A stretch of DNA of 43,750 bases from an uncultured Bacillota bacterium (GTDB lineage: Bacteria > Bacillota > Clostridia > Oscillospirales > Oscillospiraceae). Location of the stretch: contig CANSSJ010000011.1 of NCBI GenBank assembly GCA_947649625.1, positions 1-43,750 of the forward strand, given 5' to 3'. Of this stretch, positions 19,590-22,833 are shown one piece after another. The notes beneath the pieces were generated by a model. The model saw only the letters and a program-made list of their open reading frames with translations, was not told the DNA's origin and searched no databases. Made by a program: the position numbers and the translations under genes. Each line of letters opens with the position of its first letter. Positions within the stretch are counted from its first letter, which is position 1.

Positions 19590-20456
19590 TCACCTCTTAC
19601 AGGTCCACCGCCCGGTAGCTCCGCAGGGGAGGGCCAGGCCGGTCTGGGTGACGGGCAGGCCCAGCTCGTCGGAGACGGTGCGGCCGCCGAATTTTTTGGA
19701 GACGATGGTCTCCAGAATGTAGGTGACGACACTGGGGGCCAGTCCGGTGGTGTAGGAGTTGAGAATGATGAACAGGGGATCGTCGGACAGCACGCCGGAC
19801 ACCAGCTCCACGAAGGGGTAGAGGTTTTCCTCCAGCTTCCACACTTCGCCGGTAGGACCCCGGCCGTAGGAGGGCGGGTCCATGATAATGGCGTCGTACT
19901 TCCGGCCCCGGCGGATCTCCCGCTCCACGAATTTGGCGCAGTCGTCCACGATCCAGCGGACGGGGGCGTCCTCCAGCCCGGAGCTTTTGGCGTTCTCCCG
20001 GGCCCACTGGACCATCCCCCTGGCGGCGTCCACATGGCACACCGAGGCCCCGGCGGCGGCGCAGGCCACGGTAGCCCCGCCGGTGTAGGCGAAGAGGTTC
20101 AGTACGCTCACCGGCCGGCCGGCGCTTCTGATCTGCTCCTGAGCGAAGTCCCAGTTGGCCGCCTGCTCGGGGAAGAGGCCGGTGTGCTTGAAGTTCATGG
20201 GCTTGATATTGAAGGTCAGCTCCCCGTAGGACACCGTCCACCGCTCGGGCATGGACTTGTTGACCCACTGGCCGCCTCCGGTGGAGGAGCGGGAATACCG
20301 TCCCGCGTTGCGCTTCCAGCCCGGGTGGGAGCGGGGGGTGTTCCAGATGGCCTGGGGGTCGGGCCGGACCAGCAGTTGGTCCCCCCAGCGCTCCAGCTTC
20401 TCCCCGCGGCCGCAGTCGATAAGCTCATAGTCGGTCCACCTGTCGGACAGCCACAT
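19590..20456 (-). CDS. Class I SAM-dependent methyltransferase, RlmI/RlmK-like
   Basis: 288 aa. The motif I region is VLNLFAYTGGATVACAAAGASVCHVDAARGMVQWARENAKSSGL and motif IV is YDAIIMDPPSYGRGPTGEVWKLEENL, the arrangement of COG1092 rRNA cytosine/guanine methyltransferases (RlmI/RlmK). The N-terminal PUA domain of RlmI is replaced by a shorter beta-rich segment (LIDCGRGEKLERWGDQLLVRPDPQAIW). Target RNA is unknown. ATG start with GGGGGTA upstream, and a near-consensus promoter at 20493. It heads the minus-strand run leading into the MreB-like gene and the ECF genes. Confidence 0.85.
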   Translation of the reverse strand: MWLSDRWTDYELIDCGRGEKLERWGDQLLVRPDPQAIWNTPRSHPGWKRNAGRYSRSSTGGGQWVNKSMPERWTVSYGELTFNIKPMNFKHTGLFPEQAANWDFAQEQIRSAGRPVSVLNLFAYTGGATVACAAAGASVCHVDAARGMVQWARENAKSSGLEDAPVRWIVDDCAKFVEREIRRGRKYDAIIMDPPSYGRGPTGEVWKLEENLYPFVELVSGVLSDDPLFIILNSYTTGLAPSVVTYILETIVSKKFGGRTVSDELGLPVTQTGLALPCGATGRWTCKR

Positions 20457-20492
20457 AACCGAAATACCCCCAATATGTTCTAAAACTAAAAC

Positions 20493-20521
20493 AGTATATC
20501 ATTTCAGGGGCGCTCCGTCAA
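20493..20521 (-). promoter_or_regulatory. Sigma-A promoter for the methyltransferase-ECF run
   Basis: On the minus strand: TTGACG, 17-base spacer, TATACT, 37 bases before the methyltransferase ATG. Confidence 0.75.
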
Positions 20522-20559
20522 CAAATACCAGGGATTTTGCGGGAATGACAGAGAAGTGA

Positions 20560-20588
20560 TTGTATTTTGCGGCCGGCTGTGATAAAAT
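20560..20588 (+). promoter_or_regulatory. Sigma-A-type promoter for the DivIVA-like gene
   Basis: TTGTAT at 20560-20565, 17-base spacer, TAAAAT at 20583-20588. Divergent from the methyltransferase promoter. Confidence 0.55.
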
Positions 20589-20643
20589 ACCTCAAAGAGC
20601 GACAGAATACCCGGCCAAACCGGCCGGTTGAGAGGTGCGAAAG

Positions 20644-21378
20644 ATGGATCATCCCTTCCGTTCCGCCGCGGTAGGCGGCTTCAACAAGCAGGATGTGCTC
20701 ACCTTTCTGGAGGAGCAGTCCAAACAGGCGGCCCAGGCCCAGCAGCAGCTCCAGGAGCAGCTGGAGGGGGCCAACCACCAGATCGAGACCCTCCGGCAGG
20801 AGGGAGAGGAGCTGAACCGCCGGCTGGAGGAAGCCCGGCGGGAGCTGGAGACCGCCCGCCAGGGCCGGGACAGCCTGAGTGTCAGGCTGGAGGAGGCTGG
20901 CCGGGAGCTGGCCGCCAGCCGGGAGGAGACGGAGCGGGTCCGGCGGGAGCTGGAGGAGGCCGTCCGGGACCGGGACGCGGTCCGCGCCGAGCGGGACAGG
21001 CTCCAGGCCAAGCTGAATGAGGTGCTGCCCGACGCCCAGGCCTATGTGCAGATCAAGGAGCGCACCGCCGGGGTGGAGCTGGACGCCCACCGCCGGGCTC
21101 AGACCATCCAGGAGAAGGCGGAGCGGGACGCTGAGCGGGTGCGCCGCCAGCTGGAGCAATGGCTGGAGCGGATGGAGAAGGAGTACAGTACCATGCGGGG
21201 CGAGGTGGAGATCACTGTGTCCCACGCGGCCAGTGAGCTGGACCGGGTGCGGGCCGGCCTGAACCGGATCACCCAGCTGGTGGACGCCCAGGAGGGGGCG
21301 CTGGAGGGGCTGGCCAGGACCTACAGCGAGACCGCCGGCCCCAAGATCGAGGCCCCTATGCCCATCCCGGAGGAATAA
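20644..21378 (+). CDS. DivIVA-like coiled-coil protein
   Basis: 244 aa. The first 30 residues (FRSAAVGGFNKQDVLTFLEEQSKQ) match the DivIVA/GpsB membrane-binding N terminus, in which a short exposed segment precedes a coiled coil. Residues about 20-125 are an almost unbroken coiled coil rich in Glu, Arg, Leu and Gln. A conserved patch (LDAHRRAQTIQEKAERDAERVRRQLEQWLERMEKEYS) follows, typical of DivIVA-like proteins of Clostridia. Expected to act at the membrane in cell-division or polar organisation. The ATG at 20644 is chosen because AGAGGTG precedes it by six bases. mreB lies 1.5 kb downstream. The coding strand is very repetitive in CTGGAG codons. Confidence 0.82.
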   Translation: MDHPFRSAAVGGFNKQDVLTFLEEQSKQAAQAQQQLQEQLEGANHQIETLRQEGEELNRRLEEARRELETARQGRDSLSVRLEEAGRELAASREETERVRRELEEAVRDRDAVRAERDRLQAKLNEVLPDAQAYVQIKERTAGVELDAHRRAQTIQEKAERDAERVRRQLEQWLERMEKEYSTMRGEVEITVSHAASELDRVRAGLNRITQLVDAQEGALEGLARTYSETAGPKIEAPMPIPEE

Positions 21379-21407
21379 TTGACAAAACAGCGCCTGCCCT
21401 CTATATT
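21379..21407 (+). promoter_or_regulatory. Near-consensus promoter for the 33-aa peptide mRNA
   Basis: TTGACA (21379-21384, 6 of 6), 17-base spacer, TATATT (21402-21407, 5 of 6). The -10 is the loop of the 16-bp palindrome at 21386-21423. The predicted start is near 21414. Confidence 0.62.
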
Positions 21408-21423
21408 GAGGGCAGGCGCTGTT
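21386..21423. terminator. 16-bp perfect hairpin, bidirectional terminator
   Basis: Arms 21386-21401 and 21408-21423 pair perfectly with a 6-base loop. It follows the DivIVA-like stop by eight bases. On the minus strand it is followed by TTTTGTCAATTATT, so it could also end an antisense RNA coming from 21640. It overlaps a plus-strand promoter. Confidence 0.75.
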
Positions 21424-21430
21424 ACAAATG

Positions 21431-21620
21431 GCGGTTAGCCACTCCCTTGTGGAAAGGGGGTGATGCGGTTGGATGACGGGCGCTGGACGAAAGTCCTGCG
21501 TTTCGTGGTGTGTGCGATCATTACAGCTCTGCTGTTGATACTTACTGCCCCAAACGCGTGTTAGTCGCCCGGATGGCCCCGGACGGCTAACAATTTCTGC
21601 TAGCTGAAAGGGCTAACCGC
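21431..21620. repeat. 10-bp inverted repeat flanking the 33-aa peptide ORF
   Basis: GCGGTTAGCC at 21431-21440 and GGCTAACCGC at 21611-21620 are perfect reverse complements bracketing the small ORF. A third related copy (GGCTAAC, near 21585-21591) could pair with the same 5' arm, giving alternative RNA folds. Confidence 0.8.
21463..21564 (+). CDS. 33-aa hydrophobic peptide, candidate type I toxin
   Basis: 33 aa. Charged start (MRLDDGRWTK), then one membrane-length hydrophobic helix (VLRFVVCAIITALLLIL), then TAPNAC. The ribosome binding site (AAGGGGG at 21454-21460) is paired in an 8-bp stem with ACTCCCTT (21441-21448), leaving the start codon just beyond the hairpin. Sense promoter at 21379, antisense consensus promoter at 21647, flanking inverted repeat. 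These are the usual traits of type I toxins, whose membrane peptide is silenced by an antisense RNA. No homologue is claimed; the family is inferred from size and layout only. Confidence 0.55.
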   Translation: MRLDDGRWTKVLRFVVCAIITALLLILTAPNAC

Positions 21621-21646
21621 TGTGCAGCAGCGCTTTCTATATATTT

Positions 21647-21674
21647 ATTATATCACGATGATGCAGTTTGTCAA
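21647..21674 (-). promoter_or_regulatory. Perfect-consensus antisense promoter
   Basis: On the minus strand: TTGACA (6 of 6), 16-base spacer, TATAAT (6 of 6), with TG one base upstream of the -10. The predicted start is near 21640, reading leftward across the 33-aa ORF towards the hairpin at 21386-21423, giving an RNA of about 250 bases. No minus-strand gene lies in that interval. Confidence 0.75.
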
Positions 21675-21689
21675 GGCGGGTGAAAAAAT

Positions 21690-21842
21690 TTGAAAGATAC
21701 AAAATTTTTAAGTGTTCGGATGGATCGGGAACTGTACGATAAGTTTCGGGACATTGCGGAATATGAGGGCCGCTCCATGAATAGTCAGATTTTGTTGTTG
21801 ATTCGGAAGTGCGTTCGGGATTATGAGGGTAAGATAAAATAA
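21690..21842 (+). CDS. Arc-like ribbon-helix-helix protein, 50 aa
   Basis: 50 aa. Ribbon-helix-helix DNA-binding fold: FLSVRMDRELYDKFRDIAEYEGRSMNSQILLLIRKCVRDYE, where the first strand (FLSVRM) would contact DNA and the two helices dimerise. TTG start with GGCGGGTG upstream. It is paralogous to the next gene (shared IAEYEGR-S/T-x-N-x-Q pattern). The antisense promoter of the toxin locus overlaps its 5' flank. AT-richer than the neighbouring housekeeping genes. Probably a small repressor; its target is unknown. Confidence 0.75.
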   Translation: MKDTKFLSVRMDRELYDKFRDIAEYEGRSMNSQILLLIRKCVRDYEGKIK

Positions 21843-21876
21843 AGTGCTGATAATTGCGAGTAAAAGATAGCAAACG

Positions 21877-21888
21877 AAACAATTGTTT
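21877..21888. promoter_or_regulatory. 12-bp palindrome, possible RHH operator
   Basis: AAACAATTGTTT is a perfect palindrome between the two RHH genes, near a weak TATTAT at 21901. Possible operator; no direct proof. Confidence 0.4.
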
Positions 21889-21952
21889 AGTAAAACCGTA
21901 TATTATGTGAACATTAAGCATAACTTGTATGCGAAATGGAGCGTAATATACC

Positions 21953-22132
21953 GTGAAAAAAGATGTCGTAGGGATTGGTTTGCGTGTCAGACCCGAGATC
22001 CACCGTAAGCTGAAATACATTGCGGAATACGAAGGCCGTACCATCAATGGACAAGCGTTATATCTGATGCAGCAGTGCATCCGGGAATTTGAGAAGGAGC
22101 ACGGCCCCATTTCGGAGGACGAACTGAAATGA
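21953..22132 (+). CDS. Arc-like ribbon-helix-helix protein, 59 aa
   Basis: 59 aa. A second ribbon-helix-helix protein: VVGIGLRVRPEIHRKLKYIAEYEGRTINGQALYLMQQCIREFEKEHG, followed by a short acidic tail (PISEDELK). GTG start with ATGGAG upstream. Its stop codon overlaps the comF ATG (ATGA), so the two are translationally coupled. It resembles the preceding 50-aa protein and probably arose from a duplication. Likely a DNA-binding regulator; an effect on the coupled comF gene is plausible but not shown. Confidence 0.8.
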   Translation: MKKDVVGIGLRVRPEIHRKLKYIAEYEGRTINGQALYLMQQCIREFEKEHGPISEDELK

Positions 22133-22833
22133 GCCTCTGGGAAAAGGTCCTGGATCTGCTCTTCCCGCCCAAATGTCCCTACTGCCAGAAAATTCTGGAC
22201 GATCCCCGGGCGCCTGTGTGCCCAAAGTGCCAGCCCAGGCTGCCCTGGCTGGAGGGAAAAGCGGGGGAGCGGAAGATCGACTTTGCCGACGGATGTTTCT
22301 CCCCCCTGGCCTACCGGGATCCGGTGCCCGGGGCGGTCCACCGGTACAAGTTCAGCCGGGTGCGGGCCCTGGGGAAGCCCTTCGCCGCTGTGATGGCCCA
22401 GTGTCTGGCAGACCGGCTGCCCGAGGGGGCGGACCTCATTACCTGGGCTCCGTTGTCCAGAGAGCGGCTGCGGGAGCGGGGCTTCGACCAGGCGGAGCTG
22501 CTGGCCCGTGAGGTGGGGCGGCTGCTGTCCATTCCGGCGATGCCCGCCCTGGAAAAGACGAGGAATACCGGCCCCCAGTCGGAGCTGGAGGAGGAGAGCG
22601 CCCGCCGGGCCAACGCCCGGGGGGCCTATGCCCTGTTGCCCGGAGCCGTCCTGACGGGGAAGCGGGTGGTGCTGGTGGACGACGTGGTCACCTCGGGCTC
22701 CACCCTCAGCGAGTGCGCCGCGCTGCTGCGCCAGGGCGGCGCGGAACGGGTGTTCTGTCTTACCCTGGCCCGGGCCAGGGGAGACAGGGAAACCCCAGAA
22801 AAAAAGACGAAAATTGTAGGAAAAAACGGTTGA
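22129..22833 (+). CDS. comF: ComF family phosphoribosyltransferase-like protein
   Basis: 234 aa. ComF-family proteins are involved in DNA uptake during competence in some Firmicutes and have a PRTase fold. An N-terminal zinc-binding CPYCQKIL...CPKCQ is seen at about residues 16-37. The PRPP-binding motif VVLVDDVVTSGSTL is intact (about residues 180-193), and APLSRERLRERGFDQAELLAREV matches the family. It overlaps the upstream RHH gene by four bases. mreB follows after a strong promoter, so comF is probably the last gene of its transcript. No comEA/comEC genes are in the window. Confidence 0.9.
   Translation: MSLWEKVLDLLFPPKCPYCQKILDDPRAPVCPKCQPRLPWLEGKAGERKIDFADGCFSPLAYRDPVPGAVHRYKFSRVRALGKPFAAVMAQCLADRLPEGADLITWAPLSRERLRERGFDQAELLAREVGRLLSIPAMPALEKTRNTGPQSELEEESARRANARGAYALLPGAVLTGKRVVLVDDVVTSGSTLSECAALLRQGGAERVFCLTLARARGDRETPEKKTKIVGKNG

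Follow-up and report, generated by a model that had tools for sequence, protein, structure and literature searches.

A candidate type I toxin-antitoxin cassette of Oscillospirales with a nested antisense RNA and apparently exchangeable toxin reading frames

The window considered here is a stretch of 43,750 nucleotides (nt) from an uncultured Bacillota bacterium of the Oscillospiraceae (GenBank assembly GCA_947649625.1, contig CANSSJ010000011.1, positions 1 to 43,750), and the element in question is a cassette of about 300 bases within it, whose features were read at 21379-21674 and around which promoters were scanned over 20400-22600. Two promoters face each other across a short open reading frame (ORF) for a hydrophobic peptide, in a layout that points to a type I toxin-antitoxin pair. 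From left to right, the features are:

21379-21407, plus strand: putative toxin messenger RNA (mRNA) promoter, TTGACA-17-TATATT, 11/12 consensus letters, start expected at about 21414
21386-21423, T-run on the minus strand: inverted repeat or hairpin with 19-nt arms (95%), probable terminator of the antisense RNA
21415-21440, plus strand: left (5') closing-stem arm of the putative toxin mRNA, sequence GGCGCTGTTACAAATGGCGGTTAGCC
21431-21440 and 21611-21620: inner palindrome core, GCGGTTAGCC / GGCTAACCGC
21440-21462, plus strand: ribosome-site hairpin, occluding GGGGGT at 21456-21461
21441-21461: the stem ACTCCCTT/AAGGGGGT of the ribosome site
21469-21564, plus strand: toxin-like ORF of 31 amino acids (aa), TTG start, stop codon at 21562-21564; an alternative ATG at 21463 would give 33 aa
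21560-21591, plus strand: third (3') hairpin, holding the stop codon (helix 4 of the aligned fold, paired in 100% of cells and with double changes at two pairs)
21610-21633, plus strand: right (3') closing-stem arm, sequence GGGCTAACCGCTGTGCAGCAGCGC, then TTTCTAT
21647-21674, minus strand: putative antisense (antitoxin) promoter, TTGACA-16-TATAAT, 12/12 consensus letters, start expected at about 21640

Both facing promoters are present as the first-pass annotation of this DNA had described them (21379-21407 on the plus strand at 11/12, 21674-21647 on the minus strand at 12/12), and the scanned stretch holds 4 promoter sites against 0.9 (standard deviation 1.1) in shuffles. The palindrome that it had seen flanking the reading frame is there as well but is longer than noted, GGCGCTGTTACAAATGGCGGTTAGCC at 21415-21440 pairing with GGGCTAACCGCTGTGCAGCAGCGC at 21610-21633 with interior gaps, and the predicted fold of the sense RNA has its two ends paired and its ribosome site closed. 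The hydrophobic peptide corresponds to a real and conserved ORF, although its start had probably been placed too early: the ATG at 21463 lies only 1 nt behind the motif GGGGGT (21456-21461), whereas the family start codon at 21469, TTG in the window and ATG in most relatives, lies 7 nt after it, and this spacing, together with the family alignment, indicates that the window peptide probably has 31 aa rather than 33.

Conserved peptide and paired repeats, which had been proposed as the things to look for in other Oscillospirales, were both found in many genomes. By blastn, 27 of 99 genomes, counting that of the window, have matches, some of them partial, and 20 reoriented copies align, with an internal deletion in L015. 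A profile of the peptide gave 39 matches in 20 of the 64 genomes of the genus, with up to 8 in one genome and tandem pairs; at the level of the order it gave matches in 18/394 genomes and 12/168 genera, at least one of which is false (L219), and at class level, under a stricter E-value, it recovered the window's own genome alone among 391. A DNA pattern spanning the ORF end and the start of the 3' hairpin, which fixes the last residues only and not the rest of the frame, was found in 61 stretches of a named species collection and 19 of viral contigs, the collection titles including Flavonifractor, Pseudoflavonifractor, Oscillibacter, Acutalibacter, Neglectibacter and Butyricicoccus, all of which we take to belong to Oscillospirales. 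Cultured carriers among them are Flavonifractor sp. An306 and Pseudoflavonifractor sp. An184. An intact frame for a hydrophobic peptide of 27-33 aa is present in 77 of the 83 pattern matches (78 distinct). Three loci first regarded as relics (L025, L026, L027) proved to be intact, with diverged ORFs.

The aligned copies share the consensus MGNGRW-K-LRFVVC...LT[AS]P[NK]AC, and net charge is positive in all 68 peptides examined, the frame-shifted L096 included. In 51 ORFs, each of 31 codons, variation is lowest at the second codon position (entropy 0.54; 0.99 and 0.97 at the other two), and the ratio of non-synonymous to synonymous differences (pN/pS) falls to 0.51 in close pairs and to 0.64-0.68 in more distant pairs, compared with 0.80 and 1.17 in the other two frames; judged by this pattern of change, the peptide is coding. 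Its 66 aligned members have no match in Pfam (E 0.01), NCBIfam or PADLOC, the profile has no sequence match in PDB, PHROGs returned nothing credible for the four peptides tried, and the window peptide class does not reach the cut-off of Hol_Tox (PF16935), a family of putative holin-like toxins.

The antisense promoter lies outside the search pattern of the ORF end. Among distinct copies with enough sequence, it scores at least 11/12 in 76 of 77 and 12/12 in 66, while the opposite strand of the same stretch reaches 11 in none and 10 in 4/77; the sole copy without it is the remnant L095, and the other five damaged copies retain it. The toxin promoter reaches at least 10/12 in 57 of 76 copies (opposite strand 3/76, two of them at 11). 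A set of 43 mostly weaker profile hits, made up of 36 of the 39 at order level (the window genome's two and one of the same score being left out) and 7 of the 39 at genus level, shows an antisense promoter scoring 10 or more in 40 cases, and in 7 when the opposite strand is read. The earlier DNA pattern is present in four of these hits; of the 39 without it, 36 have the promoter, the three misses being L219 (inside a 478-aa frame), L213 (score 9) and L223 (score 7).

Terminator-like hairpins for the antisense RNA occur at the left end of 43/67 copies (other strand 3, shuffles 0.9), and for the sense RNA at the right end of 30/67 (other strand 6, shuffles 2.1), so that, with promoters on the outside and terminators at opposite ends, the two RNAs are predicted to overlap along their whole length. 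In the window, the hairpin at 21386-21423, which overlaps the toxin promoter, had been proposed to end the antisense RNA, and its T-run on the minus strand fits that prediction. It is lineage-specific, and other hairpins occupy the same spot in many copies. A role solely as terminator of the upstream gene is disfavoured by this T-run and by the different hairpins that most of the displayed cassette-free loci have there by eye, although L151 and L167, which lack the cassette, retain this one.

In the alignment of 19 copies, standard pairs make up 98.4% of the closing stem, ribosome-site hairpin and 3' hairpin together, against 95.3 in shuffles, and 10 pairs show double changes against a shuffled mean of 4.1 (0/500 shuffles reach 10; slid structures give 1-5). 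The ribosome motif, said by the first-pass annotation to be trapped in the stem at 21441-21461, is indeed predicted to be occluded there and in 55-57 of 66 copies: over 66 copies its unpaired probability averages 0.11 when the full transcript is folded and 0.107 for the isolated leader, against 0.465 with a shuffled upstream leader, and values below 0.3 for the leader were obtained in 57 copies against 1 control. The repeat GUUAGCC, which occurs in both the 5' arm and the 3' hairpin, was considered as a pairing switch, an idea left unsupported by helices that vary independently in several copies. Are the long inverted arms, the many copies and the tandem arrays those of a non-coding palindromic mobile element or operator pair, with an incidental peptide? 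This is very improbable. Pairing between the arms is stronger in the sense than in the antisense RNA in 58/68 copies and weaker in 6/68, and G-U pairs of the closing stem favour the toxin strand by 191 to 55, which argues for an mRNA fold on one RNA strand rather than a DNA operator; moreover, conservation extends beyond the arms into the two outside promoters, the ORF is intact in the 77/83 mentioned above, and over 121 query bases the two copies of this peptide class in the window genome share no more than 72% identity.

The type I toxin-antitoxin layout put forward by the first-pass annotation is thus supported by the conserved peptide, the antisense promoter, the occluded ribosome site, the covarying stem and the terminators, and we read the locus, with a probability of roughly 0.85 and from sequence comparison, as a type I cassette of a new family with a nested antisense RNA. 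The comparison shows a conserved peptide, conserved promoters and fold, terminators in many copies, and several cargos within one chassis, the name used below for the shared frame of promoters and RNA structures. Several observations weigh against this interpretation. The toxin promoter scores below 10 in 19/76 copies, ribosome-site occlusion is not clear in 9-11/66, and terminators were not found for the antisense RNA in 24/67 copies and for the mRNA in 37/67. The fold tested was derived from the same 19-copy alignment, and further pair types number 28 against 27.3 in shuffles, a value reached by 211 of 500. Purifying selection on the peptide is only moderate, judging by pN/pS, one other frame is open in 92% of the 51 copies, albeit without purifying selection (1.17), and 6 of the 83 pattern matches lack an intact frame, namely the truncated or deleted remnants L095, L097, L099, L110 and L127 and a frameshift in a C-run of L096. 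In two of the cargo classes described next, moreover, the controls are less regular: in the MVTY class the toxin promoter is weak, reaching a score of at least 9 in 6/22 only, and in the xxAC class the ribosome site is clearly occluded in 6/16 and not in 10/16.

Hits that aligned at their ends alone proved to contain different ORFs. A pattern built from the right arm and five bases of the antisense -10 box alone gave 59 matches in 27/64 genomes of the genus (1 for the reversed pattern) and 75 matches in 42/388 genomes of the order (reversed pattern 7). Six rough classes of cargo, defined by patterns written afterwards and covering the order-level matches in part, comprise 94 copies: APKAC (the class of the window) 40, xxAC 16, MVTY 22, ITL 9, TYES 4 and LHIF 3. 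Another 27 arm matches have no classed ORF; their antisense promoter scores at least 11 in 11 and is weaker or lacking in the rest. In the classed copies this promoter reaches at least 11/12 in 93/94, five of the twelve letters being set by the arm pattern and the -35 box, the spacing and the last base of the -10 box being free, and in 90/94 the left side, which lies outside the pattern, forms a duplex with the right arm that is more stable than those of shuffled sequence by 10 kcal/mol or more. In viral contigs the arm pattern gave at least 97 distinct new matches, of which at least 36 pass the promoter and arm tests, with mainly APKAC/xxAC, MVTY and ITL cargos. Contrary to what had been supposed, the chassis is not confined to the order. 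Beyond it, the class-level search gave 27 arm matches (reversed pattern 4), of which 26 were read; most of these look accidental. The matches of family f42 (G469, G503, G557, G644, G684), however, have a 12/12 antisense promoter, pairing arms in most, and the ORF (V/M)KQ[FL][LI]RII-LTILFLV-FTIK[AT]V where the sequence suffices. Five f42 loci (L461, L463, L465, L466, L467) have a divergent chassis around a 23-codon ORF ending in FTIKTV or FTIKAV, and a long additional leader containing a second hairpin like that of the ribosome site.

One of these cargos belongs to a known family. In the viral-contig locus L407 (and also in L431), which has paired arms and an antisense promoter of 11/12, the peptide scores 30.5 bits for Hol_Tox, above the cut-off of 23.3; of the MVTY-type peptides of other loci, 2/11 exceed that cut-off, L407/L431 within the chassis and L276 outside the chassis pattern. 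Loci with Hol_Tox-like, M.TYS-type peptides (L276-L280, L283-L285) were found with PF16935; the two checked, L276 and L280, combine a 12/12 antisense promoter with a related layout that the chassis pattern does not capture, and may represent a sister chassis. The peptides of L307, L310, L323, L333, L348 and L414 (MRITLHIG-FTVTIIVK-RNRH and MPITLTFH) show an alternating pattern with no obvious membrane helix, and share the chassis with membrane peptides.

Does the cassette encode a toxin, or a small membrane protein, regulator or stress peptide, kept under the same antisense control and harmless to the cell? The RNA layout and the conservation of the peptide fit both equally well. The second possibility is nevertheless improbable given the multicopy, tandem and sporadic distribution of the family and its presence in viral contigs, some copies lying beside tail, head or endolysin genes: among 20 flanking proteins from ten contigs, 6 match PHROG families, mostly of these kinds. 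Similarly, L097, L099, L110 and L127 have a damaged 5' half yet retain the antisense promoter, and in genome G033 (L015, L127) the ribosome site and start were lost while that promoter was kept, a loss sparing the antitoxin side that would be expected of toxin-antitoxin genes. Finally, the Hol_Tox member occupies the same chassis, and by analogy with it the peptide is probably toxic to its own cell. A phage collection searched by tblastn gave one chance-level match, and plasmids searched by blastn none. In genomes G013 (L151) and G049 (L167) the neighbouring gene and the terminator hairpin are present and the cassette is absent; compared by eye with the window, the missing stretch of L151 is bracketed by a short GCGG repeat. 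Chassis copies are unusually numerous in G371 (9 arm-pattern matches) and in the contig G337:C33 (4 in tandem), and the window genome itself has two APKAC copies, two MVTY copies and one related MPTYSELF locus.

The tandem array of G337:C33 bears on how the cargos came to differ. Two of its four units contain MVTY-type and two MRITL-type ORFs. Units 2 (MVTY) and 4 (MRITL) are 97% identical from the left arm to the start codon and 93% from the right arm through the antisense promoter (95% overall when the antisense promoter is counted with arms and leader). Their ORFs, by contrast, agree at 55%, the mean level of unrelated ORFs. Wider comparisons of the same units, partly cut short and including the 3' hairpin stretch, give 0.68 and 0.72, lower values that follow from a 3' hairpin differing along with the ORF. 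Elsewhere, the identity of flanks between classes averages 0.65 and peaks at about 0.80, whereas shuffled sequence gives 0.54 (at most 0.61); the 3' component of the cross-class figure is inflated by the search pattern, and 5' flanks, which lie outside the search, reach 0.82 between classes. We lean towards a modular type I chassis of Oscillospirales, some other Clostridia and phages, in which unrelated toxin ORFs (APKAC/xxAC, Hol_Tox-like MVTY, TYES, MRITL-type and short LHIF) would be exchanged within a conserved silencing frame of facing promoters, closing arms, ribosome-site hairpin and terminators. That the different peptides arose instead by fast divergence or convergence, without ORF exchange, is a more doubtful account, to which the 95% identical flanks of units 2 and 4 around ORFs at the unrelated level (0.55) and the 5' flank identity of up to 0.82 are opposed. 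In its favour, the xxAC peptides grade into the APKAC peptides, cross-class flank identity averages 0.65, a figure to which the search pattern itself contributes on the 3' side, and units 2 and 4, in which the 3' hairpin region differs too, are the only near-identical flank pair with different cargo, a point that also tells against exchange. The toxin is, on the modular account, probably exchangeable between chassis copies. Homologous loci that keep the palindromes and not the peptide had been named beforehand as an argument against a toxin-antitoxin system; such loci exist literally, but the short peptides they encode are different ones, including a Hol_Tox member above the Pfam cut-off, and the loci may be read as cases of toxin exchange rather than as refutation.

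The course of events, from transcription, RNA pairing and processing to toxicity and function, would be as follows, as we infer it. The weaker promoter would produce an mRNA of about 230 nt, whose ends would pair into a long closing stem while a local hairpin holds the ribosome site, leaving the primary transcript poorly translated. The near-perfect facing promoter would produce an antisense RNA that covers the toxin mRNA entirely and stops at the hairpin beside the toxin promoter; once the two had paired, translation would be blocked and the mRNA open to attack by double-strand RNase. Should the supply of antisense RNA fall, some mRNA could be opened, and the 31-aa membrane peptide would be made and harm the cell. 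Since the antisense RNA covers everything between the conserved arms, any inserted ORF would receive a matching antitoxin, and the RNA frame could outlast its cargo. If this is true, common gut bacteria and their phages would have a further, large toxin-antitoxin family that the searched family libraries lack; its full-length antisense frame would let toxins be replaced without co-evolving a new antitoxin, and natural chassis with different cargos would allow a direct test of how RNA antitoxins keep up with toxins that change. The chassis may also serve annotation, as its motif of about 40 bases points to tiny ORFs.

Among known systems, TxpA/RatA and BsrG/SR4 are characterised type I systems of Bacillus subtilis, and TxpA and BsrG presumably belong to PF16935. 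The window family resembles Hol_Tox, TxpA/RatA and BsrG/SR4 in its small hydrophobic peptide, its antisense antitoxin and its prophage location, but the window class lacks a Hol_Tox match and its antisense RNA is predicted to span the whole mRNA. In size, the window peptide is similar to AapA of Helicobacter pylori. In the passages at hand of a 2014 review, the Gram-positive type I pairs described up to then overlap at their 3' ends (PMC4147584), and for Ibs/Sib of Escherichia coli, first noted as a 140-nt repeat in several copies, the Sib antisense covers the ribosome site and the entire ibs ORF (PMC4147584). Compared by layout, the antisense cover of ribosome site and ORF and the several copies are shared with the window family, while the Ibs/Sib unit is shorter. 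AapA/IsoA, in the part of its description available, combines 5'-3' pairing of the mRNA, ribosome-site hairpins, a cis antisense RNA and several loci per chromosome (PMC6733600), all of them likenesses of layout; it comes, however, from another phylum, and its antitoxin -10 box appears, from a passage on a mutation, to lie inside the toxin ORF, whereas the window promoter lies outside the closing stem. Closer in taxonomy, the type I modules of Clostridioides difficile (CD2517.1-RCd8 and others), again from excerpts, encode small membrane toxins of 34-59 aa with charged C-termini, have convergent antisense RNAs and lie in several cases in prophages (PMC6563280). They share with the window family the Clostridia, the small membrane toxins, the prophage setting and the convergent antisense, but differ, by these descriptions, in their charged ends, the window class ending APKAC/APNAC-like. 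The window family would apparently combine full overlap, end-to-end pairing and exchangeable cargo. No description of it was present among the literature matches listed, which cover open-licence text of PubMed Central (PMC), and one may be in print. In Rfam the window has no match, and nine loci searched at the gathering threshold gave two, a transfer RNA and a thiamine pyrophosphate riboswitch, both outside the cassettes; five matches at a loose threshold in nine loci (MIR398 on L268 and BsrG on L305, for example) were well below gathering and were taken as chance.

The cassette follows a coiled-coil ORF (20635-21378), whose similarity to DivIVA is weak and below the cut-off, and is followed by two small ribbon-helix-helix-like ORFs and then a comF-like gene. 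The two small ORFs, at 21690-21842 and 21953-22132, lie in tandem and are 71% alike in DNA over 77 bases; the first is over the Pfam cut-off for Arc and the second is below the cut-offs. In some cassette-free genomes (L151 and L167, by eye) such an ORF lies 3' of the same upstream gene, and a part for these ORFs in the system was therefore rejected.
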